Assembly (NCBI RefSeq): GCF_008297975.1
Contig: NZ_VLNY01000023.1
Location: 1 to 50,031, forward strand
Direction: 5' to 3'
DNA: 50,031 bases
DNA from: Antrihabitans cavernicola
GTDB lineage: Bacteria; Actinomycetota; Actinomycetes; Mycobacteriales; Mycobacteriaceae
Both the position numbers and the translations under genes were made by a program. Below the pieces are notes generated by a model that saw nothing but the letters and a program-made list of their open reading frames with translations, was not told the DNA's origin and made no database searches. Shown here piece by piece: positions 4,234 through 18,802 of the stretch. The stretch's first letter is position 1, and every line of letters starts with the position of its first letter.

Positions 4234-4285
4234 ACCGTAACCCATGGCTGATTGAACAGTGAAACAGCTCACAAAGTCTGCAGAG

Positions 4286-5272
4286 ATGCGGTCGAGTCGC
4301 TTGGTCGAAATCATGCTGCGATTGCAGGGCAGCAGGAGCGCCACAGCGGCCACGTTGGCCGATGAGCTGGGCGTATCGGTCCGAACGATATATCGGGACG
4401 TTTCCGCACTCTCTGCGGCGGGCGTGCCACTGTGGACCGACACCGGTCCCGGTGGTGGGATTCGACTGTTGGACGGATGGCAATCGAAGCTCAGCGGGCT
4501 GACCGGAACCGAGACGTCGGCGCTGATGCTGCTGGGGATTCCGTCGCTTGCCGAGGATCTTGGACTCGGCTCCGAGGCTGCGCGCGCCGAGTCGAAGCTG
4601 CTCGGCGCATTGCCGCTGCCGTTGCGTATCGGCGCGGAGGCATGGCGTCGGCGATTGCATGTGGATGCGCCGGGCTGGTTTGCGCGGCCCGTGGAAGTCG
4701 GTGAGCTGCCCACGATTGCCCAGGCGGTGCTCGGCGGGTGGCGGGTCCGTTTCGAGTATCGGCGTCGGCCGGATTCCGTCGAGCGCACCGTCGATCCGCT
4801 GGGGCTCGTCGCGAAAGCGTCCGTCTGGTACCTGGTCGCAAGGGTGGGCGGTCGAGTGCTGTCCTATCGCGTCGACCGGATCGAGTCGGCTGCGGTGCTC
4901 GACGAAACCTTCGATCGGCCAGACGATTTCGATCTAGCGGCCTGGTGGGAGCAATCGAATGCCGAGTTCGACAGATCGATTCGTCGATACGCCTGCACCG
5001 TGCGGCTGTCACCGTCCGCGCTGCGATTGTTGCCGCAGTACATCGGAGTCCAGGCCGCGCAGGTAGCGACTGGGGAGCCCGATTCGGCGGGATGGGTCAC
5101 GGTCGACCTGATGCTCGAGGCCGAGGTGGTCGCTCTGGGGCAACTGTGCGCTCTGGCCGGGTTCTCGCGAACTGGTGAGGGTGCGGTCGGTGTCGAGGTG
5201 ATGGCGCCGCCGGAGTTGCGAGAGGCGTTGCGGGCGTTGGGCGCTGGAATCGCTGGACGCAACGGAGCATAA
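4286..5272 (+). CDS. HTH/WYL-domain transcriptional regulator (YafY type)
   Basis: The N-terminus is a DeoR-like winged helix (RSSRLVEIMLRLQ... ADELGVSVRTIYRDVSALSAAGVP), and the middle holds a WYL-like domain (VRFEYRR, then WYLVARVGGRVLSYRVDRI). Such proteins are ligand-responsive regulators of adjacent genes. The ATG at 4286 gives 328 residues and puts the HTH at the family's usual distance from the N-terminus; a GTG at 4259 would add nine residues (MKQLTKSAE). It is divergent from the lipase gene, and the repeats at 4204-4233 are the likely binding site. The ligand is unknown. Confidence 0.87.
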   Translation: MRSSRLVEIMLRLQGSRSATAATLADELGVSVRTIYRDVSALSAAGVPLWTDTGPGGGIRLLDGWQSKLSGLTGTETSALMLLGIPSLAEDLGLGSEAARAESKLLGALPLPLRIGAEAWRRRLHVDAPGWFARPVEVGELPTIAQAVLGGWRVRFEYRRRPDSVERTVDPLGLVAKASVWYLVARVGGRVLSYRVDRIESAAVLDETFDRPDDFDLAAWWEQSNAEFDRSIRRYACTVRLSPSALRLLPQYIGVQAAQVATGEPDSAGWVTVDLMLEAEVVALGQLCALAGFSRTGEGAVGVEVMAPPELREALRALGAGIAGRNGA

Positions 5273-5303
5273 GCCCAGGTAGATCGCGTGAGCGCAGACA
5301 CAG

Positions 5304-5347
5304 GTAGTGAATTACTCGTGTCGGGTACTGGTCACCTGACCTAACGT
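5304..5347 (+). promoter_or_regulatory. GTAGT-palindrome promoter, site 1
   Basis: GTAGTGAATTAC (5304-5315) followed by TCG matches the 12-bp element seen at three other places in this window. A -10-like TAACGT lies at 5342-5347, 37 bp after the first T of TAGT, the same spacing as at the other sites. Predicted transcription starts near 5354, immediately before the hairpin at 5355. Confidence 0.6.
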
Positions 5348-5354
5348 CGCATCC

Positions 5355-5385
5355 GGGCTGCGGCTACGAGGGGTAGCCGCAGCCC
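5355..5385 (+). promoter_or_regulatory. Perfect 12-bp stem hairpin in a 5' leader
   Basis: GGGCTGCGGCTA (5355-5366) pairs perfectly with TAGCCGCAGCCC (5374-5385) around a 7-nt loop. No T-run follows, so an ordinary intrinsic terminator is unlikely. It would lie at the extreme 5' end of the transcript predicted from site 1 and ends 24 bp before the ATG at 5410. Confidence 0.65.
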
Positions 5386-5409
5386 AAGGACTTTCTGAGG
5401 GGTTGGCTG

Positions 5410-5934
5410 ATGCATCTGCCGTCATGCACCGATATGTTCGACCGCCGCCGGTTGGAGTCGGCCTTCGTCGCGCTGACCGAACGCGCGAGACATGACGCGG
5501 ATGCACTGGACACCGACGCATTGGACGCCGCGCAGCGCCTGCTCGATCTCGGCATCGGCCTCATGCCTGCCGCGCGCACGTCGGCAGGGCCGTTCCAGGT
5601 GCAACCGATGGCCTGTCGCGGCCACGACTTGCCAGCTCGCGCAACCCGATTGGCCGCCAGCCCCGATACGGTGCTCTTCAGTGTCGGCTATCCGCGAGAG
5701 TTGCCGACCGCGACCGAAACGCACGCACTCCACATCGTCTGGTTCAACCTCGACTCGCTCACCGGTGGCACCACGCTCATGACGAGCGGCGGCTGCGTAC
5801 GCGGGCCGGGAGCAGCGATGCGCGTCGCGATGGTGATGGCCGGACGCGGTGGCGTGGTCGCGGCGATCAGCTACGGCTCACCGGGGGCCGCGCAGGTCCA
5901 CGACGGTCGACCAGGATTCATCTATATGCATTGA
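5410..5934 (+). CDS. Hypothetical protein, orphan
   Basis: I do not recognise this 174-residue soluble protein. The N-terminal half is helical and charged (FDRRRLESAFVALTERARHDADALD). The C-terminal half is Gly-rich and beta-like (TTLMTSGGCVRGPGAAMRVAMVMAGRG... AAISYGSPGAAQ). There is no signal peptide or membrane helix. A TGAGGGG ribosome site at 5396-5402 supports the ATG at 5410. It sits behind promoter site 1 and the leader hairpin, and 44 bp before regulator 1, so it probably belongs to the same functional unit as that regulator. Confidence 0.65.
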   Translation: MHLPSCTDMFDRRRLESAFVALTERARHDADALDTDALDAAQRLLDLGIGLMPAARTSAGPFQVQPMACRGHDLPARATRLAASPDTVLFSVGYPRELPTATETHALHIVWFNLDSLTGGTTLMTSGGCVRGPGAAMRVAMVMAGRGGVVAAISYGSPGAAQVHDGRPGFIYMH

Positions 5935-5963
5935 CGATCTGCCCGGATCGACCTGGTCGTCCC

Positions 5964-5969
5964 TAGTAT
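5964..5969 (+). promoter_or_regulatory. -10 element of LuxR-family regulator 1 (probably leaderless)
   Basis: TAGTAT lies 9 bp before the ATG at 5979, which would place transcription start at or within a few bases of the start codon. No ribosome site precedes the ATG, consistent with leaderless translation common in actinobacteria. No clear -35 box was seen. Confidence 0.4.
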
Positions 5970-5978
5970 CGTCCAGGC

Positions 5979-8582
5979 ATGCCGACACAATGGCCGACCC
6001 TGGGGCGATCGGCACAACTCGGGGAGATCAGCCGCGCGCTCCAGACCCGCAACGGGTCGAACGGCGTTGTGGTGACCGGGCCTGCCGGCGTCGGCAAAAC
6101 CACCCTGGCACGAGATGCCGTGCGCGCGAGCGGACTGACGTCTCGGTGGATCGTGGGAACCGAATCGGCGAAGAAGGTGCCGCTCGGCGCGTTCTCGCAC
6201 CTGATCTCTATCGAGGGCCCGATCGAACCTGCGACGGTGTTGCGCGCTGCGCGAGCCGAATTGGTGGCTCCGGGTGGTCCGGCGATCATCGGTGTCGACG
6301 ACGCCCATCACCTCGACAACTTCTCTGCCACGCTGGTCCATCAGCTTGCGATCTCCGGCGCGGTTCGCCTCGTCGTCACCATCCGTGACGGCGAGCAGGC
6401 ACCGGATGCCATCACCGCGTTGTGGAAGGACGAGTGGCTCACCCGCGTCGAGTTGGGGGCGTTCACTCGTGAGCAAACCGTCGAACTTGCCGAAGCCGTC
6501 CTCGATGGACCGTTGGAGGGGCCGAGCGTCGATCGCATCTTCCGGGTCTCCGAGGGCAATCCGCTGTTCCTTCGTCATCTGATCGAAGCCGCGATCGCGG
6601 CGAACAGCCTACGGCAGACATCCGGTGTGTGGCAGCTGCGCGGCAAGGGTGCCGCGATCGGATCCAAGCTCGACGCGCTGGTCGAGACCCGGCTGGGTCG
6701 TCTCACCCAGGAAGAGCGACATGTTTTGGAGGTGCTGTCGTTCGCCGAGCCGATGGCACTCGATGCGCTGGCCGATCTGACGTCCGCCGCGGGAGTCGAA
6801 GGCGCAGAGCGCGAAGGCATGATCCGTGTGCTGGATCGGGACTCGGGAATCGTTGTGCGGCTGGGCCATCCACTCTACGGCGAGGTGTTGTCGCGCCGTA
6901 TTCCGGAGGCGGATGCTCGGTGCATCCGCAGTGAGATCGTCCGCAGGCTGTCGGATCCCAAGCCCGTGCACGTGGTCGATCAGATCCGACTGGCGGCGCT
7001 GGCGCTCGACAGCGATACACCCCCCGACCCGAACATGTTGGTCGACGCATCGCGAGATGCCTTGCGGCTCGGCGATATCGAACTCTGCGAACGACTGGCC
7101 GGTGGCGCGAAATCGGGCGGCGGCGGCTTCTTCGCATCGGTCTACCTGTGCCACGCACTGTCCTGGCTCGGTCGCGGCGAAGAGGTGGAAGCGGAACTCG
7201 CACAATATGATCCGGACACACTGAACGAATTCGAGTTGCTGCACTGGGGGCTCTCGCGCGCGGCGAACATGTTCTGGATGCTGAGCCGACCGGTCGATGC
7301 TCGAGCGCTACTCGACCTGCTGAACTCCCGCGCCTCCGAGCGGATGGTCTTCGACCTGGTCGCCGCGCTGGAATCGATGTTCCTGGTCTATGCCGACAAG
7401 CCGAACAAAGCCGTCGAGGTTGCGACGCGTGTGATGGAGTCTCCTGCCAGCCCGCCGCTGGCCCGAGCTTGGGCGGCGTCCGCCGCTGTGCTGGGACTCG
7501 CGGTGGTCGGCAGTTTCGACGGCATGGACGCGCTGGCAGACGAAGGTCTGGAGGCGGCCTACGCGGCGGAGACCGGTCTGCTCCGGTACACGATCGGCCT
7601 GGGTCTCGTTCTGGCACGGGCGGTTTCGGGTGATCTGGCGTCCGCTCGCGAGTTGGGCGTCGAGTATGTCGATTTCGCCGAGCTGCAGCAACCTGCTCGC
7701 TCGCTCGGCGGAATTCTGCTGGGCCGCGCGATGTTCGGCCAAGGCGATCTGGTGCTTGCCAGTGCGGAACTTCGGCAGGCTGCTGCCGCACTCGAAGGCA
7801 CCGGGCTGGCCTGGGAAATGCTGGCGCCCGCCTACCTCGCCCAGTCAGCGGCCGCACAGGGCTCGGTCAAGGACGCGCACAATGCGCTGGAGCGAGCCGA
7901 GCTCCTGTTCGGTGAGAAATGTGCCATGCACTATCCCGATCTGCTCCTGGCGCGAGCCTGGGTAGCGGCATCGGAAAAAGATGTCGACCGCGCCAGGAAA
8001 TTCGCGAGAGACGCCGCGACGGCTGCGGAAGGTTCGGGTCAGCTGGCGTCGGCGGCACTGGCGTTGCTGACGGCCGTGCAGTTCGGTGACGACACGCTTG
8101 CGGCCGAGCTCGATCGGTTCGAGCGCGCTGTCCCTACCCCGGTCACCGCTGCCGCCGCGCGGATGGCGCATGGGCTGGCCGATCGCAACGGCGAAGCACT
8201 CGAGGCCGTCGCACGCGACTTCGAGCGCATCGGGATGCGACTGGTCGCCGCCGACGCGTTCGCCTACGCCGCCGTGCATCACGCGAGTGCTGACCACAAG
8301 ACGGGCGAGGCCGCAGCGGGAGCGTCGGCACGGCGACTGGCGGCGGAATGCGGTGGCGCAGAGACACTTGCGCTGACAGCGACAGCCAAGGCGCTGCCGT
8401 TGACCACGCGCGAGCGCGAGGTCGCGACCATGGTGGCGAACGATATGTCCAACAAGGAGATCGCCGAGAAGTTGGTGGTGTCGATCCGCACCGTCGAGGG
8501 TCACATCTACCGCGCCTGCAGCAAGTTGCACGTTCCCGATCGCGCGGGGTTGGCCACCGTGATGCGCGCCGAACTCAGGTAG
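5979..8582 (+). CDS. LuxR-family ATPase transcriptional regulator 1
   Basis: A large 867-residue regulator of the MalT/LAL-like architecture. An AAA/STAND-type ATPase comes first, with Walker A GPAGVGKT at 34-41 and Walker B IIGVDDAH near 103-110. A long helical, TPR-like sensor region follows, and a C-terminal LuxR-type HTH occupies about 808-867 (LTTREREVATMVAND, SNKEIAEKL, VSIRTVEGHIYRACSKL). Such proteins use nucleotide-dependent oligomerisation to activate promoters in response to an inducer. It is paralogous to the proteins at 16081 and 18803 and shares their start register (Walker A at residue 34 in all three). Its stop codon lies within promoter site 2 for the downstream operon, a likely target. 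The inducer is unknown. Confidence 0.9.
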   Translation: MPTQWPTLGRSAQLGEISRALQTRNGSNGVVVTGPAGVGKTTLARDAVRASGLTSRWIVGTESAKKVPLGAFSHLISIEGPIEPATVLRAARAELVAPGGPAIIGVDDAHHLDNFSATLVHQLAISGAVRLVVTIRDGEQAPDAITALWKDEWLTRVELGAFTREQTVELAEAVLDGPLEGPSVDRIFRVSEGNPLFLRHLIEAAIAANSLRQTSGVWQLRGKGAAIGSKLDALVETRLGRLTQEERHVLEVLSFAEPMALDALADLTSAAGVEGAEREGMIRVLDRDSGIVVRLGHPLYGEVLSRRIPEADARCIRSEIVRRLSDPKPVHVVDQIRLAALALDSDTPPDPNMLVDASRDALRLGDIELCERLAGGAKSGGGGFFASVYLCHALSWLGRGEEVEAELAQYDPDTLNEFELLHWGLSRAANMFWMLSRPVDARALLDLLNSRASERMVFDLVAALESMFLVYADKPNKAVEVATRVMESPASPPLARAWAASAAVLGLAVVGSFDGMDALADEGLEAAYAAETGLLRYTIGLGLVLARAVSGDLASARELGVEYVDFAELQQPARSLGGILLGRAMFGQGDLVLASAELRQAAAALEGTGLAWEMLAPAYLAQSAAAQGSVKDAHNALERAELLFGEKCAMHYPDLLLARAWVAASEKDVDRARKFARDAATAAEGSGQLASAALALLTAVQFGDDTLAAELDRFERAVPTPVTAAAARMAHGLADRNGEALEAVARDFERIGMRLVAADAFAYAAVHHASADHKTGEAAAGASARRLAAECGGAETLALTATAKALPLTTREREVATMVANDMSNKEIAEKLVVSIRTVEGHIYRACSKLHVPDRAGLATVMRAELR

Positions 8583-8622
8583 TCGAGTACTCGATACATG
8601 GCATCCGCAGCAGGAACACACT
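8579..8622 (+). promoter_or_regulatory. GTAGT-palindrome promoter, site 2
   Basis: GTAGTCGAGTAC (8579-8590) followed by TCG; the TAG at 8580-8582 is also the stop codon of regulator 1. A -10-like CACACT sits at 8617-8622, 37 bp after the T of TAGT. Transcription would start at about the ATG at 8630, giving a leaderless message for the hydrolase-GMC operon. Confidence 0.6.
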
Positions 8623-8629
8623 GGCAACC

Positions 8630-9703
8630 ATGACCGAGACACAGGTGTGCGTTGCGCCTTCGCCGTACCAGGTCGAGCACGCGCAGTTCGAGACGATCTG
8701 GTTCACGGCTGCCGACGGTGTGCCGTTGAATTTCCGTCGACTTCGTCGGGCATCAGGGACCGAGGATCGTGGCCCGCTGCTGCTGTCCGCAGGCACCAGC
8801 GTGCGCGCCGACATCTTCTCGCCGCCCACCGCGGACACCCTCCCGCGCTATCTGTCCCGCGCAGGCTACGACGTGTGGGTGCTCAACTGGCGCGCCAGCA
8901 TCGACCTCGCGCCAACCACGTGCACCGTGGAAGATGCTGCGGTACTTGATTTTCCGAGTGCGGTCGACACGATCGTCGAGTACACGGGTGCGGATTCGAT
9001 CAAAGCGGTGGTGCATTGCCTCGGCTCGTGCGCCTTCATGCTGGCCATTTCCAACGGCATGCTGCCGAAGGTCTCCACGGTGGTGAGCAATGCGTCGGCG
9101 TTGCATCCGGAGGTTGCTCCGTTGATGTGGCTCAAGATGCCACCGGCGATCGGACTTCTTGCGAAAGTGCTACCCGACCTCAACCCGCAGTGGGGGGTGC
9201 ATGCGCCAGGCTTCTGGCCGAAGCTGGCTCGCACGCTGATGCGAATCGGTCACCACGAGTGCGACAACGAAGTGTGCAAGATGTCGAGCTTCTTCTACGG
9301 CGTCGGCTTCCCGGCACTGTGGCGGCACGAGAATCTGAACGACGACACCCACGACTGGTTGTCGGGCGAGATGGCTCAGGTGTCGACCAAGCTGCTGACC
9401 CACGTGAGCAAGAGCATCCGCACCGGCCATCTGATCGCGACCGGCAAGTACGACGAGTTGCCCACCGACTATATTCGCCGCGCTCCGGCGACCGACGCCC
9501 GCTTCGCGTTCATGACCGGCGACCACAACTCCACCTTCGTTCCGGTGAGCATGGCTCGCACCTTCGACCATTTCGACAAATATTCGCCAGGCAGACATGT
9601 CTTTCAGAAGATGCACGGCTACGGGCACCTCGACGTGTTCATCGGCGATCGCGCCGCCGAGGACGTCTTTCCGTTCATCCTCGACGAATTGAACAGGGAC
9701 TGA
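8630..9703 (+). CDS. Alpha/beta hydrolase, PhaC-like, with Cys in the nucleophile elbow
   Basis: A 357-residue alpha/beta-fold protein. The elbow reads VVHCLGSCAF, with Cys about 130 where lipases have Ser; this resembles the G-x-C-x-G box of polyhydroxyalkanoate synthases, although the first Gly is His here. A late Asp (MTGDHNSTF) and a His (HGYGHLDVFIGD) complete a plausible triad. The sequence YLSRAGYDVWVLNWRAS is typical of PhaC/PhaZ-like hydrolases. Substrate is unknown. The ATG at 8630 begins the recognisable domain and fits a leaderless promoter; the longer open frame upstream is a shadow of regulator 1. It is followed after 4 bp by the gene at 9708 and then the GMC oxidoreductase, so the three probably act on one lipid or sterol-like substrate (inference). 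Confidence 0.82.
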   Translation: MTETQVCVAPSPYQVEHAQFETIWFTAADGVPLNFRRLRRASGTEDRGPLLLSAGTSVRADIFSPPTADTLPRYLSRAGYDVWVLNWRASIDLAPTTCTVEDAAVLDFPSAVDTIVEYTGADSIKAVVHCLGSCAFMLAISNGMLPKVSTVVSNASALHPEVAPLMWLKMPPAIGLLAKVLPDLNPQWGVHAPGFWPKLARTLMRIGHHECDNEVCKMSSFFYGVGFPALWRHENLNDDTHDWLSGEMAQVSTKLLTHVSKSIRTGHLIATGKYDELPTDYIRRAPATDARFAFMTGDHNSTFVPVSMARTFDHFDKYSPGRHVFQKMHGYGHLDVFIGDRAAEDVFPFILDELNRD

Positions 9704-9707
9704 CGTC

Positions 9708-10271
9708 GTGTCCGCGGGACTGCGGTTTCGGGAGGTGATGACCGGTCAGGTCACCATGGGCGAGAAGGATCCGTGGGTGGGCTATCGGAGTCCGGCGTCG
9801 GCCGCCGTCACGTTCACGGCGCGGATCACGATCGAGGACATCGGCACGTTTCTCGCCGACCCCGACCACGCCGCGGCGCTGTCGGCGGACCTGGACGTGC
9901 CGAGGCTCGGCGGCCGGATCGCTTCGCGAGGAGGCGTTTTCGGCGTGTTCACGCCAACCGATGATGCCCGAACGACACACATCCGCTACGAGTTGCCGAT
10001 CACGATCGACGACCGCCCGCATTGGCTGCACGGCGTCAAGGTCGTGACGGTGGCCGCGCCGTGGCGACTGTGGCCGGCAACCACGACTCTGCTGACCTTC
10101 ATCCACGAGGGCGTCGACGACTCCGGTGCCATAGTCGGTGCCGGCGTGCTGAAGATGGGTGCGGGCAAGCTGATCAGGTCGGTGACCACGCTGCGCGGTG
10201 CCGTCGCGCAGTACCTGAGTTTCTTTGCGGGCGGGCTGATCTCGACGTATCTGCTGCGGCGCCGCGCATGA
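9708..10271 (+). CDS. Unknown protein between hydrolase and GMC oxidoreductase
   Basis: This 187-residue protein starts with GTG 4 bp after the hydrolase stop and overlaps the GMC start codon (ATGA), so it is tightly coupled to both. It has no motif I recognise. It looks like a beta-rich ligand-binding domain (AAVTFTARITIEDIGTFLADPDH..., then GGVFGVFTPTD, YELPITIDD) with a more hydrophobic C-terminus ending AQYLSFFAGGLISTYLLRRRA. Similar domains may occur fused to GMC oxidoreductases in other bacteria, but I could not check this. A role in substrate presentation is inference. Confidence 0.75.
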   Translation: MSAGLRFREVMTGQVTMGEKDPWVGYRSPASAAVTFTARITIEDIGTFLADPDHAAALSADLDVPRLGGRIASRGGVFGVFTPTDDARTTHIRYELPITIDDRPHWLHGVKVVTVAAPWRLWPATTTLLTFIHEGVDDSGAIVGAGVLKMGAGKLIRSVTTLRGAVAQYLSFFAGGLISTYLLRRRA

Positions 10272-11872
10272 GCGCCTACGACGTCGTAGTCATCGGAAGC
10301 GGATTCGGCGGTGCCGTCGCCGCCTGCCGACTTGCCGAGGCCGGGCGTCGAGTGTTGGTGCTCGAACGCGGGAGAGCGTGGGATCCCGAAAGCTATCCGC
10401 GCGGGCGGAACGGTGACTGGCTCTACAGCCCGCGGAATCCGCACCGCCACAACGGGTGGCTGGATGTGCGCATGGTCAGCACCAACATGGTGGTCGCCGC
10501 CGGTGCGGGCGTGGGCGGTGGTTCGCTGATCTACGCGAACGTGTCCATCGATGCCGGTCCCGACGTTTTTCGCTCCGGTTGGCCGTCCGCGATCGATGCG
10601 ACCGCGTTGGCGCCGTACTACAGCCGGGTCGGTGCCATGCTTGCGGCGAAGCCGATACCGGACGAGCAGAGTCCGGTGCGGTTGGAGCTGATGCGTCAGG
10701 CCGCCGGAAAGATCGGTGCCGGCGATCGCTTCGAAAAGCTAGATCTGGCAGTCACTTTCGATCGTGACTGGCAGCCGACCGAAGGCAAGCGCACGCCGAC
10801 CGAGTCGAAGCAGTGGACGAATCGGCACGGTATGAAACAGGGCACCTGTACGCATTGCGGGAACTGCGTGATCGGCTGCTCGTCACGGGCCAAGAACACG
10901 CTCGACCTCAATTATCTTGCGGTAGCGAAAAGTAACGGCGCGGTCATCAGACCGTTGTGTCAGGTGAGTCATCTGTCGCGGGTGGGGGCGCGGTGGCGGG
11001 TGCACTTCGACGATGTGTCGGGTGGAACGCGTGACGCCGAGACCGTCGAAGCCGAGCGGGTGATTCTGGCCGCCGGGTCGCTGGGCTCCACCGAGATACT
11101 AATGCGCTCGCAGTTCGAGTTCGCGACTCTGCCGAATCTGCCGCGGTCGTTGGGCAAGGGCTGGAGTTCCAACGGCGACTTCGTGACTCCGGAGTGGTTC
11201 ACCCGTCGCGAGGAGCCGGCGTCGCCGACCAAGGGGCCCACCATCACGTCGGCCATCGACTTTCTCGACGGTTCGTCAGGCGGCCGATATTTCGTCGAAG
11301 ACGGCGGTCTACCGAACATGATGGATGTGCTGTTCGACGCGGGGGAGAAGTCCAAGACGGGTGGAAAACTTCAGCGCCGCACGATGACTCGGCTGCACCG
11401 GATCGGCGCGATGGGGTCGGTGATGCCCTGGTTCGGCCAGGCGATCGACGGATCCGACGGCGACTTCTACCTGTCGCGATCGCCGATCGCGCCGTTGGCA
11501 CGCGGGGCAGGGCGTCGCGCCCTCAAGCTGGACTGGAATCCGTTGCGCTCCAAGACCGCGATCGACTCGATGGCCGCGACCCATCGCGCACTGTCTCGAG
11601 CCACCGGCGGACACCCGTTTCCACGGCTGGCCTGGTCCTGGTTCCGCGGGCTCGTCACCCCGCATCCGCTCGGCGGTTGCAACATGGCCGCGTCGCCCGC
11701 GGCGGGTGTGGTCGACCACGCGGGACGCGTCTTCGGCCATCCGGGCCTGTACGTGATGGACGGGTCGATCATTCCCCGCGCTGTCGGCCGCAATCCCTCG
11801 AAAACCATTGCTGCGGTGGCCGAGCGGGCGGTGGAACTGTTGATCGCCGAACCCTCGACTCGAGTCGAGTAG
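10268..11872 (+). CDS. GMC-family FAD oxidoreductase (cholesterol-oxidase-like)
   Basis: A 534-residue flavoenzyme. The N-terminal Rossmann motif is VVVIGSGFGGAVAACRLAEAG, followed by VLERG. A four-cysteine stretch CTHCGNCVIGC occurs near the middle, as in ChoD-like GMC proteins. The C-terminal signature TPHPLGGCNM and GLYVMDGSIIPRAVGRNPS complete the family pattern. Such enzymes oxidise sterol or other alcohols to ketones with O2 or another acceptor. No signal peptide is visible, so it is probably cytoplasmic. The ATG overlaps the preceding stop (ATGA). Its own TAG stop lies within promoter site 3. The physiological substrate is not deducible from sequence alone. Confidence 0.92.
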   Translation: MSAYDVVVIGSGFGGAVAACRLAEAGRRVLVLERGRAWDPESYPRGRNGDWLYSPRNPHRHNGWLDVRMVSTNMVVAAGAGVGGGSLIYANVSIDAGPDVFRSGWPSAIDATALAPYYSRVGAMLAAKPIPDEQSPVRLELMRQAAGKIGAGDRFEKLDLAVTFDRDWQPTEGKRTPTESKQWTNRHGMKQGTCTHCGNCVIGCSSRAKNTLDLNYLAVAKSNGAVIRPLCQVSHLSRVGARWRVHFDDVSGGTRDAETVEAERVILAAGSLGSTEILMRSQFEFATLPNLPRSLGKGWSSNGDFVTPEWFTRREEPASPTKGPTITSAIDFLDGSSGGRYFVEDGGLPNMMDVLFDAGEKSKTGGKLQRRTMTRLHRIGAMGSVMPWFGQAIDGSDGDFYLSRSPIAPLARGAGRRALKLDWNPLRSKTAIDSMAATHRALSRATGGHPFPRLAWSWFRGLVTPHPLGGCNMAASPAAGVVDHAGRVFGHPGLYVMDGSIIPRAVGRNPSKTIAAVAERAVELLIAEPSTRVE

Positions 11873-11911
11873 TGAACTACTCGTGCGCAGGTAATTGTCT
11901 CGACTTAGCGT
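11869..11911 (+). promoter_or_regulatory. GTAGT-palindrome promoter, site 3
   Basis: GTAGTGAACTAC (11869-11880) followed by TCGTG, identical to site 1 apart from one base across this stretch. The TAG at 11870-11872 is the stop codon of the GMC gene. A -10-like TAGCGT lies at 11906-11911, 36 bp after the T of TAGT and 6 bp before the ATG at 11918, predicting a leaderless transcript. Confidence 0.62.
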
Positions 11912-11917
11912 CTTTTC

Positions 11918-12205
11918 ATGACGTCGGTATGCGAGATCACCCGATTCGACGACGTTGCGGACACCGATGCGCTCCGCAACGAGATCGACTACCTCGACCA
12001 GCAGATTCTTGCGGCGGTGAAACGCAGATCGGAGTTGTCGCAGTTGGCAGGCAGGCGTCAACTCTCGACGACGTCGGCTCGGGCACAGCAGCGCCACGAG
12101 CTCGCCGTTCTGCAGCGTTTCCGCGAACTGGGCCCGGAGGGTCGTTCGCTGGGGATGGCGTTGCTGCGGCTCGGCCGTGGGCGGACTACCTCCAGAATTG
12201 GGTGA
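11918..12205 (+). CDS. Chorismate-mutase-like protein (AroQ-delta fold) with altered active site
   Basis: This 95-residue helical protein aligns without gaps to the intracellular chorismate mutase of mycobacteria (Rv0948c type): ALRNEIDYLDQQILAAVKRR, then the conserved ELGPEGRSLGMALLRLGRGR tail. Two active-site arginines are present (Arg20 and Arg37, equivalent to Arg18 and Arg35). The residues equivalent to Arg46 and Arg58 are Gln48 and His60, while the adjacent Glu (Glu61) is kept. Weak or absent mutase activity is therefore likely. The C-terminal RLGRGR segment, which in Rv0948c takes part in contact with DAHP synthase, is preserved, so a regulatory role is possible. The equivalences are from memory of the family. 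It is driven by promoter site 3 and overlaps the M50 gene by 20 bp, tail to tail. Confidence 0.8.
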   Translation: MTSVCEITRFDDVADTDALRNEIDYLDQQILAAVKRRSELSQLAGRRQLSTTSARAQQRHELAVLQRFRELGPEGRSLGMALLRLGRGRTTSRIG

Positions 12206-12950
12206 GGAACCCGCCGTTGCCCGCCCACCAATCGGGTACGCCGGAGAGCTCGAACACCCAGTAGATCGCGCCGAAGAACGCGGTGTTCAGAGCAGGGACG
12301 AACAGCAATGCCATGACGGCCAGCAGCCCGTAGGGCGCATATTGCTGGAGCTGATGACGCGTTTGCGGCGACAACGACGGTTCCAGTGCGCCGAAGCCGT
12401 CCAGCCCGGGAACCGGTAGCAGATTCAGCACCGTCGCGGTGATCTGCAGAAATGCCAAGAAACTCAGGCCGTACCAGAAGGCTTCGTGCTGAGTGTCGGA
12501 TCCGAAGTTGGCGATGACGGCGAGCAGGATCACGGCGCTCACCGCGTTGACCGCGGGGCCTGCCAGGCTGATCGTCCGCTGGGTGCGCGCATCGAACAGA
12601 TGTGAATGGACGTAGACCGCACCGCCGGGCAAACCGATCCCGCCGATCGCGATGAACAGGATCGGTAGGCCGATCGACAGCATCGGGTGGCTGTACTTCA
12701 GCGGATTCAACGTCAGATAGCCGCGGATCTCCACCTCGCGGTCACCCGCCCGCCAGGCTGTGTAGGCGTGCGCGAACTCGTGCAGGCACAGCGTGACGAT
12801 CCAGCCGAACACCACGAGGACGAACACCCCGACGTGGGCGAGCACCGAATGCAGGTCGGCGTTCCACGCGATCACCGACCCTGCGACCGCTAGTGCCACG
12901 ACGGCGAGGAAGACCGGACTCGGTCGCCTGTTCACCCCACGACCAGCCAT
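12186..12950 (-). CDS. Site-2 protease family (M50) membrane metalloprotease, Rv0359-like
   Basis: A 254-residue integral membrane protein with the zinc motif HEFAH at 57-61 inside a membrane helix and the second signature NLLPVPGLDGF around 176-186 supplying the Asp ligand. A GPAVN motif at 131-135 is also typical of this short M50 subgroup. Family members cleave transmembrane segments of substrates such as anti-sigma factors; the substrate here is unknown. The ATG overlaps the end of the Rv0358-like gene by 19 bp, indicating an operon, the same order as in mycobacteria next to purA. Confidence 0.92.
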   Translation of the reverse strand: MAGRGVNRRPSPVFLAVVALAVAGSVIAWNADLHSVLAHVGVFVLVVFGWIVTLCLHEFAHAYTAWRAGDREVEIRGYLTLNPLKYSHPMLSIGLPILFIAIGGIGLPGGAVYVHSHLFDARTQRTISLAGPAVNAVSAVILLAVIANFGSDTQHEAFWYGLSFLAFLQITATVLNLLPVPGLDGFGALEPSLSPQTRHQLQQYAPYGLLAVMALLFVPALNTAFFGAIYWVFELSGVPDWWAGNGGFLTQFWR

Positions 12951-13600
12951 GGATCGCTGTGCCGATAGAACGTGGAGCGCTTCACTGCCCGTGCAGTGGC
13001 AACGCCGTCTCTGGTCACGACCGCGGCAGGCGAACCCAGCTGTACGGCGCGACCGGCGGCCCAGCGGCGACGCGGGCGCAGCACCCGACCACGATCGGCG
13101 TACCCGCGCACTCCAGGCATGTCGGCGGTGGGTTCCAGATGGACAGCGGCGGCGGCTCCGGTGAAGAGCTTGGTGTCGTCGACGTAGGCCTCGCCGTCCA
13201 GTTGTCCACCTGCCGGTCCGGTGATCGTGGCACTTCCCACCAGCGCAGTTCCGGTGTCGTCGCGAATCAGCGGTGTCGGCGTGGCAGTCCCGGACAGCGC
13301 TTTCGCCGCCGCCGCCGCGCCGACTCCGGTGCGGTAGATCCTGGATGCCGCGGATTTCTGGGCTGGGACGTAGGCCACCTCGACATGCAGGCGTTCCGAT
13401 CGCATCAGCCGGGTCAGTACAGCAGCCAGCGCGGCGTCGTCGCCGAGGACGATCAGCCGTGGTTTCTCGTCGGCATCGAGCACCGCGAACAGTGCGTCGA
13501 CGTCGACCGCATCAGGGCTGGCGCTGGTGTTGGTGACCGGCAGCGACGTCAGTGAGATCGGGCTCGGCGCCTCGCCACAGCGAAGTACGAAGATGCTCAC
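12932..13600 (-). CDS. Conserved protein, Rv0358-like
   Basis: A protein of 222 residues from the GTG at 13600 (SIFVLRCGEAP); the open frame continues further upstream only as an antisense shadow of purA. It contains segments such as PRLIVLGDDAALAAVLTRLMRSERLHVEVAYVP and a C-terminal TFYRHSDPWLVVG. It resembles the uncharacterised Rv0358 protein between purA and the M50 protease. The first half looks like a Rossmann-like alpha/beta fold reminiscent of diacylglycerol-kinase-like N-termini, but I would not assign a function. It is divergent from purA and coupled to the M50 gene. Confidence 0.82.
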   Translation of the reverse strand: MSIFVLRCGEAPSPISLTSLPVTNTSASPDAVDVDALFAVLDADEKPRLIVLGDDAALAAVLTRLMRSERLHVEVAYVPAQKSAASRIYRTGVGAAAAAKALSGTATPTPLIRDDTGTALVGSATITGPAGGQLDGEAYVDDTKLFTGAAAAVHLEPTADMPGVRGYADRGRVLRPRRRWAAGRAVQLGSPAAVVTRDGVATARAVKRSTFYRHSDPWLVVG

Positions 13601-13728
13601 TGCTGCCACGATAGCCAATGCAGGCCCCGACAACGACAAGCAACGGTGGGCTCGGTGGGACTGTCCGTCCTCTCGACTAGACTGTCCTCCCGGCCACTGC
13701 CCGCGAACTGGCAGGACGCCGCAGCTAG

Positions 13729-15054
<1,326 letters not shown>

Positions 15055-15059
15055 CCCTA

Positions 15060-15116
15060 CGAGTGTGCGCTGATGGAGAGGTCTTCTCGACCTTTGCCGC
15101 AGTCATCGCACACTCG
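15060..15116. terminator. Long inverted repeat after purA
   Basis: CGAGTGTGCG (15060-15069) and CGCACACTCG (15107-15116) form a perfect 10-bp stem, and a shorter AGGTC/GACCT pair lies within the loop (about 15080-15094). It begins 5 bp after the purA stop, so a transcription terminator or mRNA-end structure is likely. No T-run follows. The GTGCG/CGCAC sequence recalls the hairpin at 38404-38450. Confidence 0.55.
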
Positions 15117-15172
15117 CGGGCCTGTGGATAACGGATTTCGGCTTCGGGCGGACTCGAGGCACGCTCGCAGCC

Positions 15173-16039
15173 ATGGGGGAGTTGGGCGACCCGTTTCCGG
15201 GCTCGTGGGCGGTAAAGGCTGGGACGGTCACGCAGTGGGAACTGCGCAAGGACTTTTGCCGGATTCATCCGGACGTGTACGTGCGCAAGGGGACCGAACT
15301 CGACGCGCGGATACGCGCTCTTGCCGCCGGACATTGGGCCAAGGGCGCCGGCGTGTTGGTCGGCCTGTCGGCGGCCGCGATGCTCGGCACGCGGTGGCTC
15401 GGCGACGAGCCCGCCGAACTGGTCAAGCCGGGCACTTCGCGTGCCCCCGCGGGAATCATCGTTCGCCGCGACGAGCTGCTCCGAGACGAAACCTGCTGTG
15501 TGGCAGGGTTCACCGTGACCACGCCTGCGCGGACCGCTTTCGACATAGGTAGGCGAGCACCCTTCGAGAAGGCTGTCGTAGTAGTCGACGCGCTGATGAA
15601 TGCGACGCGCACTACGCCGTCGCATATCGCAGACCTCGCAGCGCGCCACCCGGGCGCACGGGGTATTCGTCACCTGCTCCGCGTGCTCGACGTCGCCGAC
15701 GGTGGCGCCGAATCGCCGCGCGAAACGCTCACCCGATTGCTGCTGATCGAGGCCGGTCTCCCTCGTCCCGAGACCCAGCTCCGGATAGTCGGTCACGACG
15801 GGTTCGTTGTTGCTCGAGCAGATCTGGGTTGGCGAGAGTGGAACGTGATCGTCGAGTACGACGGTGCCCAGCATTGGAACGACCGCCGACAACGCTCGTG
15901 GGACATCGATCGAACCGCGATTCTCGAGTCGATGGGGTGGAAGGTGGTACGGGTGAGTGCCGAACTCCTCGACTCTCGACCGTGGGTGGTGATCGATCGG
16001 GTTCGCCGGGCGCTGGCCGCGGCAGGTGCGGACGTGTGA
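15173..16039 (+). CDS. AbiEi-like antitoxin-domain / DUF559-type nuclease-fold protein
   Basis: A 288-residue protein of a type common in actinobacteria. The N-terminal half resembles the winged-helix AbiEi antitoxin domain (FCRIHPDVYVRKGTELD, GLSAAAMLG, TPARTAFDIGRR). The C-terminal part has the restriction-endonuclease-like DUF559/Vsr fold: EYDGAQHW, then a run with DIDRTAILESMGWKVVRVSAE. No partner toxin gene lies beside it, so a toxin-antitoxin role is unsupported here; such solitary genes are of unknown function. No ribosome site is seen before the chosen ATG. Confidence 0.75.
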   Translation: MGELGDPFPGSWAVKAGTVTQWELRKDFCRIHPDVYVRKGTELDARIRALAAGHWAKGAGVLVGLSAAAMLGTRWLGDEPAELVKPGTSRAPAGIIVRRDELLRDETCCVAGFTVTTPARTAFDIGRRAPFEKAVVVVDALMNATRTTPSHIADLAARHPGARGIRHLLRVLDVADGGAESPRETLTRLLLIEAGLPRPETQLRIVGHDGFVVARADLGWREWNVIVEYDGAQHWNDRRQRSWDIDRTAILESMGWKVVRVSAELLDSRPWVVIDRVRRALAAAGADV

Positions 16040-16068
16040 TGCCTGCAGTGCACGATGCTTGCGGCACA

Positions 16069-16074
16069 TACACT
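16069..16074 (+). promoter_or_regulatory. -10 element of LuxR-family regulator 2 (probably leaderless)
   Basis: TACACT ends 6 bp before the ATG at 16081, predicting a leaderless transcript. No ribosome site and no convincing -35 box are present. Confidence 0.4.
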
Positions 16075-16080
16075 GCGAAC

Positions 16081-18675
16081 ATGCCGTCACGGTGGCCGAC
16101 TGTTCTGCGACAACGTCATCTCGAGACGATGTCGTCGGCTCTGCGCGCCAGCGGTGGTACGCGCGGTGTCGTTCTCACCGGTGGAGCAGGCGTCGGGAAG
16201 ACCACGTTGGCGCGGCACGCGATCAACGGCAACACCGGAACCACGCGCTGGCTGGCGGGTACCGAAACGGCGCGCGGCATTCCGCTCGGAGCCTTCGCGC
16301 ACCTGGTCGACGTCGCGGATCCCCGTGAGCCGCACTCGATTCTGCGTGCCGCTCGGCAGCACCTGCTCTCCGGTAGCTCCGATGTTCTGATCGGTGTCGA
16401 CGACGCGCACATGCTGGATCAGTTGTCCGCGACCGTCGTTCATCAGTTGGCGCTCGAGCATGCCGCCAACTTCGTGGTGACGGTGCGGACCGGGCAGGAA
16501 GCGCCGGACGCGATCACCGCGTTGTGGAAGGACGGGTTGCTCACCCGTGTCGATCTAGCACCGTTCAGCCGCCAGGAGCTGGTGGAACTGGTCGAGACGG
16601 TGTTGGAGGGCTCGCTGGAATCGGTGAGCGCCGACCGGTTGTATGCCATCTCCCAAGGCAATCCGCTGTTTCTGCGCCACCTGGTCGAGGGCGCGTTGGA
16701 GGCGGGCAACCTGCGACGCGTCGCCGGAGTCTGGCAGCTGCGCGGCGAGACCGTGATCAATCCGCACCTTTCGGCGCTGGTGGAATCACGGCTCGCGGAT
16801 CTGTCGCAACCCACCCTTGCCGTTGTGGAGCACTTGGCATTCGGCGGCAGCCTGGAAGCCGAGGTGGTGACGTCGCTGCACGATCACGAGGCCGTCGAAG
16901 CCGCCGAGCGTGCGGGTCTGACGCAGGTGAGCACCGAGAAGGACCGGCTGACAGTCGCGTTGACGCACCCGATCTACGGCGAAGTGGTTCGTGCGCGCAC
17001 CGGAGTGTTGAAGGCGCGCAGGATTCGTGGCGAACTTGTCGGCGCGCTCGCGACGGGTAGGCCACCGCACGTCAGCGATCGCATCAGGCTGGTGTCGCTG
17101 GCGTTGGACAGCGACCGACCGCCGGACCTCGGCGCGCTGATCGATACCGCCGGTGCTGCACTGACTCTCGGCGACGTGGTGCTGAGTGAGCGGTTCGCGC
17201 GGCGGGCAGGCGAGCTGGGCGGTGGGTTTCGGTCGTCGTTGGTGCTCGCGCAGGCGCTGGTGTGGCAAGGCCACAGCCAGGATTCCGAAAACGTCCTTGC
17301 CGCAATCGATCTGGACGCGCTGAACGAAATCGAGCTGCTCACCTGGGCAACCACGCGGGCCTCCACGCTGTTCTGGATGCTCAACGATCCAGTCAAGGCG
17401 ACCGCGGTGATCGATACCGCGCGCGCCCGATTGACCCTGCCGATCGGCGCCGGTTTTCTGGAGATGCTGCGTGCCACGTTCACCGATCAGCTTCCGGAAG
17501 CAGTGGAAGCCGCACGGGCCGTGCAGAAATCGCCGTACGTGACGCCGATCGTGTTGGCGTGGGCGACCTTCACGGAAGCGACGGCGTCGGTGCAGGTCGG
17601 GCATCTCGACGGCGTGGATGCGCTGGTGCAACGAGGCTTGGCAGGCCTCTCGCAATCGCCGTCCGGTCTGCTGCGCTTCAACCTCGGGCTCGCCGAGGTG
17701 CTCGCGGCGGTCGCTGCGGGCGACCTGGACGGCGCCGAGGCGGCGGCGCGGCGATTCGTCGGATTCGCGGTGGGGCAGCAGCCCGCGCGCGCGAAAGCCG
17801 GTGTACTGCTCGGTTATGTGCTGCTCCAGCGCGGCAAGCTGGCCGGCGCTCGGACCGAATTCGTCCAAGCCGTCGCGGCATTGCAGAACGTCGGGTACTC
17901 GTGGGAGTTCTTCGCCGCCGCGTATCTGTGCCAAACCTGTGCGGCGCTGGGCCTCGCAAGCGAAGGAGCCGATGCGCTGCGCCGTGCCGAAGGACTGGTC
18001 GGCGGGAACGTGGCAGTGCTGGGGTCCGAACTCGACGTGTCGCGAGCCTGGCAGGCCGGCGTCGAAGGTAGAACGTCCGCCGCCGTCGAACACACGCAGA
18101 GCGCCGCTGCAATCGCCGCGAAATCCGGCCGAGTGGCGATGCAGGCATCGGCACTGTTCACCGCGGTTCGCTTCGGCGATCGGGCCGCTGCAACCGAATT
18201 GATTGAATTTGCAACGGGTCTCGAAGGCGATCTCGCCGCCATGCAGGTCGCGCATGCCGAGGCGTTCGCTGCCGACGATGCCGCGAAACTGGCCGCTGTC
18301 GCCACCCGCTGGGAGGATGCGGGCTTCTTGGTTGCGGCGGCCGACGCTGCTGCGCAGTCCGCAATCGCGTTCACCAGAGCGGGCGATCGACGAGGCGAAC
18401 TCGCGTCGTCCGCGGTTGCGTTCCGGTTGTCGCAGGCGTGTGACGGCGCGAAAACGCCTGCGCTGGTTGTCGAGTCGAATCCGCTGCCGTTGACCGCACG
18501 CGAACGCGAAATCGCCTCACTCGTCGGAATGGGATTGTCCAACAAGGAGATTGCCGACCGCTTGACCGTTTCCGTGCGCACCGTCGAAGGTCACATCTAT
18601 CGCTCGTGCATCAAACTGGACGTGGCGGATCGCGACGGCCTCGCCGAAGCGGTGAAGCATGTTTTCCGACAGTAA
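16081..18675 (+). CDS. LuxR-family ATPase transcriptional regulator 2
   Basis: An 864-residue paralogue of the proteins at 5979 and 18803. Walker A GGAGVGKT falls at 34-41, Walker B LIGVDDAHMLD near 103-113, then a long helical sensor region, and a C-terminal LuxR HTH (LTAREREIASLVGMG, SNKEIADRLTVSVRTVEGHIYRSC). The start at 16081 gives the same N-terminal register as its paralogues (MPSRWPT versus MPTQWPT); the longer open frame back to 15829 is a shadow of the upstream gene. No GTAGT palindrome precedes it. Site 4, 21 bp after its stop, precedes regulator 3, so the two may form a regulatory cascade (inference). Confidence 0.9.
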   Translation: MPSRWPTVLRQRHLETMSSALRASGGTRGVVLTGGAGVGKTTLARHAINGNTGTTRWLAGTETARGIPLGAFAHLVDVADPREPHSILRAARQHLLSGSSDVLIGVDDAHMLDQLSATVVHQLALEHAANFVVTVRTGQEAPDAITALWKDGLLTRVDLAPFSRQELVELVETVLEGSLESVSADRLYAISQGNPLFLRHLVEGALEAGNLRRVAGVWQLRGETVINPHLSALVESRLADLSQPTLAVVEHLAFGGSLEAEVVTSLHDHEAVEAAERAGLTQVSTEKDRLTVALTHPIYGEVVRARTGVLKARRIRGELVGALATGRPPHVSDRIRLVSLALDSDRPPDLGALIDTAGAALTLGDVVLSERFARRAGELGGGFRSSLVLAQALVWQGHSQDSENVLAAIDLDALNEIELLTWATTRASTLFWMLNDPVKATAVIDTARARLTLPIGAGFLEMLRATFTDQLPEAVEAARAVQKSPYVTPIVLAWATFTEATASVQVGHLDGVDALVQRGLAGLSQSPSGLLRFNLGLAEVLAAVAAGDLDGAEAAARRFVGFAVGQQPARAKAGVLLGYVLLQRGKLAGARTEFVQAVAALQNVGYSWEFFAAAYLCQTCAALGLASEGADALRRAEGLVGGNVAVLGSELDVSRAWQAGVEGRTSAAVEHTQSAAAIAAKSGRVAMQASALFTAVRFGDRAAATELIEFATGLEGDLAAMQVAHAEAFAADDAAKLAAVATRWEDAGFLVAAADAAAQSAIAFTRAGDRRGELASSAVAFRLSQACDGAKTPALVVESNPLPLTAREREIASLVGMGLSNKEIADRLTVSVRTVEGHIYRSCIKLDVADRDGLAEAVKHVFRQ

Positions 18676-18695
18676 ATAAATGCCGGCATAGACAG

Positions 18696-18738
18696 GTAGT
18701 CGACTACGCGGTCGCTGGGTTCCGTTCGCGCTCATGCT
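18696..18738 (+). promoter_or_regulatory. GTAGT-palindrome promoter, site 4
   Basis: GTAGTCGACTAC (18696-18707) is a perfect 12-bp palindrome, the best of the four sites, followed by GCG. A -10-like CATGCT lies at 18733-18738, 36 bp after the T of TAGT. A second possible -10, GATAAT, is at 18756-18761. Either would serve regulator 3. Confidence 0.55.
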
Positions 18739-18802
18739 TTGTGTACAACCCCTTCGATAATTGGGCTGAAACATGAGGCAACCGACATTAACCTTGACAG
18801 AT

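Follow-up and report, generated by a model that had tools for sequence, protein, structure and literature searches.

A two-fold symmetric promoter box at fixed spacing from the −10 hexamer, and its association with LAL regulators, in Antrihabitans cavernicola and its relatives

Regulators of the MalT/LAL type are built from a nucleoside triphosphatase (NTPase) with Walker A and B motifs, a helical repeat region and a C-terminal LuxR-type helix-turn-helix (HTH), and the operators that we found described for them differ among themselves. MalT boxes are short and directional, with the sequence GGA[TG]GA (PMC9628970), and stand in direct repeat (PMC6099782). TpdR of Rhodococcus jostii TMP1, a LAL activator from a related actinobacterium, has a proposed site at the tpdABC promoter that is a 15-nt direct repeat, TnnAAnnGCGGAnTC (PMC6099782). 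SCO6993 of Streptomyces coelicolor, also a LAL, has palindromic binding sites and binds at its own promoter; it acts as a repressor, and its authors were unable to predict a consensus from its sites (PMC9628970). Here we describe a promoter box, GTAGTSRANTAC, that occurs four times in a 50,031-nt stretch of the Antrihabitans cavernicola genome (contig NZ_VLNY01000023.1, positions 1 to 50,031; called the window below), together with its symmetry, spacing, conservation, and co-distribution and physical linkage with genes for a subfamily of LAL regulators.

The window box differs from all three of these kinds of site. In place of the repeated, directional MalT boxes the promoters have a single symmetric box, always at the same position, which several paralogues apparently share; its palindrome differs in sequence from the MalT operator (no scan for MalT boxes as such was made), and it is likewise a palindrome with a different sequence when set against the TpdR repeat. 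With SCO6993 the window system would have in common the LAL, the palindromes and the regulator's own promoter, but SCO6993 represses, and no consensus could be predicted for its sites. No description of the box was recognised in the open-access literature, searched by 12-mer strings and for LAL operators, a scope outside which most subscription papers lie. We put the probability at roughly three in four that the box is the operator of a LAL subfamily that includes the three regulators encoded in the window, and that it acts in class II activation.

Sequence, spacing and distribution of the box

An original prediction, made from the letters of the window, had placed a 12-bp near-palindrome at four positions, each followed by a −10-like hexamer, and a window scan found exact copies of GTAGTSRANTAC at all four (5304, 8579, 11869 and 18696, + strand) with the hexamers at the offsets claimed. 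Box 1 (5301–5318, core 5304–5315) lies in the promoter of an operon of an orphan gene and regulator 1, with TAACGT at 5342–5347; box 2 (8576–8593, core 8579–8590) in the promoter of a hydrolase operon, with CACACT at 8617–8622; box 3 (11866–11883, core 11869–11880) at the end of a gene for a GMC oxidoreductase, with TAGCGT at 11906–11911; and box 4 (18693–18710, core 18696–18707) in the promoter of regulator 3, with CATGCT at 18733–18738. Counted from the first G of the box, the four hexamers begin at 38, 38, 37 and 37 nt, or at 37, 37, 36 and 36 nt when counted from the T. The open reading frames (ORFs) of regulator 1 and the GMC oxidase end at 8582 and 11872, so both TAG stop codons fall within the GTAGT of boxes 2 and 3, an overlap that had also been predicted. 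Looser matches in the window (up to two mismatches) numbered 46 against 14.6 expected and were not used further.

The palindrome proved to be the core of a longer element. From 57 sites oriented by their hexamers the consensus is A-n-TCGA-GTAGTSSACTAC-KCGyG, in which the core letters were fixed by the search patterns, and a one-sided TCG for most loci, while the A, the T and the second arm were free. Of 96 unique sites, 38 have both outer arms, 52 have one and 6 have none. On the left, CAG replaces CGA in three of the four window copies; box 3 has both arms complete.

YANNNT begins 37 or 38 nt past the first G, in at least one orientation, at 57 of the 96 unique sites, while other pairs of adjacent offsets hold about 3.7 on average. 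The preference persists when this genome is excluded (49/84; other pairs mean 3.2, maximum 8), within this genome (8/12) and at loci fetched later (15/26; other pairs mean 1.3, maximum 5). Because the patterns used to search for sites did not contain the hexamer, it is an independent feature of these promoters. A −35 consensus was looked for between box and hexamer at the oriented sites and none was found.

In the 5.66-Mb genome the strict 12-mer occurs at 13 places, four of them in a 13.4-kb part of the window, compared with 4 for the reversed control; with TCG added the counts are 7 and 0, and with one mismatch and a looser core 39 and 22, a small excess. Eight of the 13 strict places, including all four window boxes, have YANNNT at 37 or 38 nt in one orientation, and four of the five without it lie inside called genes. 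Six places in this genome look incidental: C1:100367, C12:116227, C23:92762 and C24:5119 fall within called genes and lack a spaced −10, C21:30931 has a spaced −10 and is within a gene for an ANTAR-domain protein, and C7:75281 is outside called genes without a spaced −10.

NCBI taxonomy places Antrihabitans in the Nocardiaceae, order Mycobacteriales. The core with TCG, GTAGTSNACTACTCG, is carried by 85 of the family's 301 genomes; with the pattern reversed there are 18 matches in 16 of the 301, and a further draw from genus g45 gave 75/178 against 12/178 for the control. In other families of the order the box is at chance level (5/243 genomes, control 4/243). A restriction to the window or the genus is therefore rejected, since the box occurs in many genera of the family, and the proposal of a small regulon was an understatement, given also the other copies at the same spacing in this genome. 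In 40 fetched stretches 37 of 44 sites are outside called genes, gene starts and operons in the relatives being taken from a crude composition-based gene caller.

The box is also kept at orthologous promoters. Box 1 with its hexamer (TAACGT or TAGCGT) is present in two other Antrihabitans species, and box 2 lies over the stop codon of regulator 1 at the same position in both, with the −10 at box 2 present in one of them. Of two findings that had been named as able to overturn the prediction, a chance frequency without −10 spacing and a loss from orthologous promoters, neither was seen: in the genome-wide and family scans the box exceeds its control with the spacing held.

LAL regulators as candidate binders

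The window encodes three LALs, recognised by Walker motifs, helical repeats and a GerE HTH, all on the + strand. Regulator 1 (LAL/STAND-LuxR, 867 amino acids) spans 5979–8582, its paralogue regulator 2 spans 16081–18675 (start approximate; the ORF opens at 15829) and the third paralogue, regulator 3 (876 amino acids), spans 18773–21403. The C-terminal GerE HTH scores 53.0, 43.9 and 44.5 bits respectively, over a cut-off of 23.5. AAA_16/AAA_22 matches exceed the curated cut-off for regulator 3 (AAA_16) and fall below it for regulators 1 (AAA_16) and 2, while G34, A36–T41 and D107–H110, corresponding to the Walker A and B motifs of a P-loop NTPase, are invariant in eight aligned sequences. TPR_MalT matches regulator 1 at 24.3 bits, under its cut-off of 45, and the helical repeat region of regulators 2 and 3 is weak by sequence. 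A structural model of regulator 1 (predicted local distance difference test 86.5) is helical from 298 to 790, between the NTPase and the HTH; its first Foldseek match is the STAND-TPR protein 6mfv, over a long range with a high root-mean-square deviation, and its third is 8bob_C, titled as negative regulation of the maltose system, a chain which we take to be MalT. PADLOC gave weak matches for regulator 1. The relative of regulator 3 at locus L075 likewise stands behind a box. Around the recognition helix the three paralogues have almost the same HTH sequence, and a single box may therefore suffice for all of them.

The original prediction had named these regulators as the likely binders on the ground that they were the only DNA-binding proteins with a matching distribution. 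They are still the best candidates, but they are not alone in the window, where a WYL regulator at 4259–5272 is another DNA-binding protein. What points to the LALs is their distribution. Homologues of regulator 1 at E ≤ 1e-60, defined here as the LAL subfamily, occur in 141 of the 301 family genomes; box and LAL are found together in 78 genomes, LAL alone in 63, box alone in 7 and neither in 153 (Fisher p 1e-24), so that in genomes free of the LAL the box is at about the control rate (7/160). The two are also physically linked. Where 0.77 would be expected for 5.5-Mb genomes, at least 19 of the 134 boxes listed have a listed LAL gene no more than 10 kb away, among them two boxes 119 bp apart and one box of the window. 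Sites scoring at least 18 with a weight matrix lie near 12 of the best 30 LAL homologue loci, and the reversed matrix gave 0 in 166 kb, the matrix having been trained in part on such LAL-adjacent sites. The box spans the stop codon of a LAL gene at seven loci in four genera (three in g1, two in g21, and g16 and g46), and the gene that follows is alpha/beta-hydrolase-like in g1 and g21, in some cases below the Pfam cut-off or unmatched, and Tle1-like in g16 and g46.

Several observations weigh against assigning the box to the LALs. The strict box is missing from 63 of the 141 LAL genomes, among them every one of the 14 from genus g10, and 115 of the 134 boxes in the list have no listed LAL closer than 10 kb. 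LAL-adjacent boxes at L176 (14658), L177, L178, L179 and L191 have no YANNNT at 37 or 38 nt, and a matrix scan upstream of regulator 2 gave no site. In two Mycobacterium records a regulator homologue has a box some 110 bp before it, with a spacing that suits the divergent gene and not the LAL. The genomes compared are related to one another, which makes the p-values look stronger than they are, and the LALs might be regulated by another factor and not be the binder. With respect to g10, where for example L189 (G012) keeps a LAL of the subfamily and lacks the strict box, the operator may have diverged.

Binding by another transcription factor, such as a NarL/DevR-type response regulator or a FadR/TetR-type dimer that counts the LAL genes among its targets, would accommodate the many boxes far from any listed LAL, and the sequence of the box is by itself silent on the protein that binds it. 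We consider this unlikely, since LAL genes co-occur with and adjoin boxes far above chance. A particular form of it, the one such factor family whose distribution was compared, looks to the small single-domain LuxR proteins, whose genes stand behind the box in genus g9 (L082, L083 and L089). As general binders these are rejected on a mismatch of distribution: they are found in 179 of 301 genomes, including all 29 genomes of g6, only one of which has a box, and are undetected at E 1e-12 in G021 and G062, each of which has the box at three places. Those behind the g9 boxes may form the second level of a cascade. A gene that by eye resembles quinolinate synthase lies across the box from the LuxR gene in L083 and L089.

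Position of the box and a model of activation

If the hexamer starts at −12, the centre of the box would fall near −43.5 or −44.5. The motif had been thought to overlap the −35 position; only the KCGyG flank extends that far, and the core ends upstream of it. The box thus abuts the −35 region at a fixed distance from the −10, the position of an activator site in a class II promoter, as had been proposed. DevR/NarL-type regulators provide a precedent, in which a LuxR-type HTH occupies a symmetric site just upstream of −35; their site differs in sequence from the box, and unlike them the candidate binders gave no receiver-domain match in profile searches.

The original prediction had also allowed for an alternative sigma factor, which might be of the extracytoplasmic function type and read the box as its −35 element. 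A fixed distance to the −10 and the lack of a separate −35 would agree with this, yet we regard it as very improbable given the two-fold symmetry of the element, whose outer arms are both present at 38 of 96 sites, and −35 elements of sigma factors are not known to be palindromic; moreover, the core stops short of −35 on its upstream side, and an ordinary YANNNT serves as the −10, at a distance that differs by one base between sites. That the box is a repressor operator is equally improbable, for although palindromic operators near promoters are common among repressors, such a site is expected to tolerate other positions and to leave a working −35, whereas the centre of the box keeps to one distance upstream of −35 in promoters without a −35 consensus.

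Under class II activation by the LALs, the ATPase/TPR part of the regulator would sense some signal, upon which a C-terminal LuxR-type HTH dimer would be released or assembled. This dimer would bind the box, whose axis of two-fold symmetry lies some 43.5 to 44.5 bp before the start, and the bound LAL would recruit RNA polymerase to a YANNNT −10 without a −35. For the window LALs this scheme would predict ATP- and inducer-dependent transcriptional activation. Both the binding of LALs to the box and activation through that binding we infer from the associations above; the paralogues would share the site owing to their near-identical HTHs, and boxes 1 and 4 would then mediate positive autoregulation.

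Genes behind the boxes and their possible meaning

The first gene past box 1 is the orphan gene (5410–5934, 174 amino acids, no Pfam match; this and the following window features to the chorismate-mutase-like gene are on the + strand), and its homologues lie after the box in both Antrihabitans relatives. A strong hairpin at 5355–5385 occupies the leader immediately downstream of the box 1 promoter; its stem aligns in the three Antrihabitans species, with folding z scores of −3.0, −3.2 and −4.2 for the leader. The window copy has the loop GAGGG and no long U-run behind it, and the hairpin may be a stability or attenuation element.

Box 2 is followed by an alpha/beta hydrolase (8630–9703, 357 amino acids; Abhydrolase_1 25.8 bits, at the cut-off), similar proteins to which follow the box in L175, L156 and L193. 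A 187-amino-acid protein without a Pfam match (9708–10271) probably belongs to the same operon, ahead of the GMC oxidoreductase (10268–11872), whose ORF opens at 10022 and whose likely ATG, judged from the translation, overlaps the preceding stop codon at 10268. Behind box 3 lies a chorismate-mutase-like gene (11918–12205, 95 amino acids; CM_2 28.5 bits, cut-off 27). The genome has a second CM_2-like gene (26.4 bits, just under the cut-off), also behind a box, at G000:C39, with genes for LemA and DUF2207 behind it. The window gene and L067:8448–8741 are diverged small CM_2-like genes with a box before each, and a short ORF in G002 (L071) that resembles them at its N-terminus lies between the box and LemA. 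The start codons of the hydrolase (8630) and the chorismate-mutase-like gene (11918) are 12–13 nt past the first base of the −10 hexamer, and therefore their messages may be leaderless or nearly so.

Between purA and regulator 2 there is a DUF559/MTES_1575-type nuclease-like gene (15173–16039). The neighbourhood of purA and an M50 peptidase (13765–15054 and 12186–12950) recurs near boxes or LAL genes in other genera (L181–L183, L188 and L192). A FUSC-type membrane gene in L182 has its end just before a box directed away from it, and similar-looking genes are at the corresponding place in L181, L183 and L188.

From 72 oriented sites 56 targets were predicted, the remainder having no called start (of at least 80 amino acids) within 200 nt. 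The predicted first genes include those for LALs, alpha/beta hydrolases, Tle1-like phospholipases (one at G000:C12, behind another box of this genome), TIR-nSTAND1, SIR2-TIR, WD40 proteins with a TIR-like N-terminus, patatins, a subtilase, a peptidase S58, a haem peroxidase, LysM, CotH, SLATT and Emfourin proteins and small LuxR proteins, and many others are without a Pfam match. Tle1-like domains occur five times and TIR_2 four times among the 56, and neither is among the families listed (25/119) for candidate nearby control genes (55/97), single-member families being unlisted, which is suggestive of an enrichment in effector domains as judged from domain profiles. Of nine targets scanned with PADLOC, three had partial matches, to TIR, subtilase and repeat entries.

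LAL/STAND regulators are widespread in these actinobacteria, and a sharply conserved box with fixed spacing would allow candidate targets of a whole LAL subfamily to be read from sequence, providing a handle on what these sensors control and hints as to where their signals might be sought. We tentatively raise the idea, itself doubtful, of a family-wide regulon in which several STAND sensor-activators share one operator and would couple different signals to common effectors and to their own amplification; at the level of transcription this would be the equivalent of NLR-type immunity or of conflict between bacteria in the Nocardiaceae and relatives. The effectors would then be those that attack membrane lipids, NAD or proteins (Tle1-like phospholipases, patatins, TIR, SIR2-TIR, TIR-STAND, SLATT and subtilase). 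The effector-like enzymes among the predicted targets suggest that STAND transcription factors may be connected with conflict systems, a connection open to testing.

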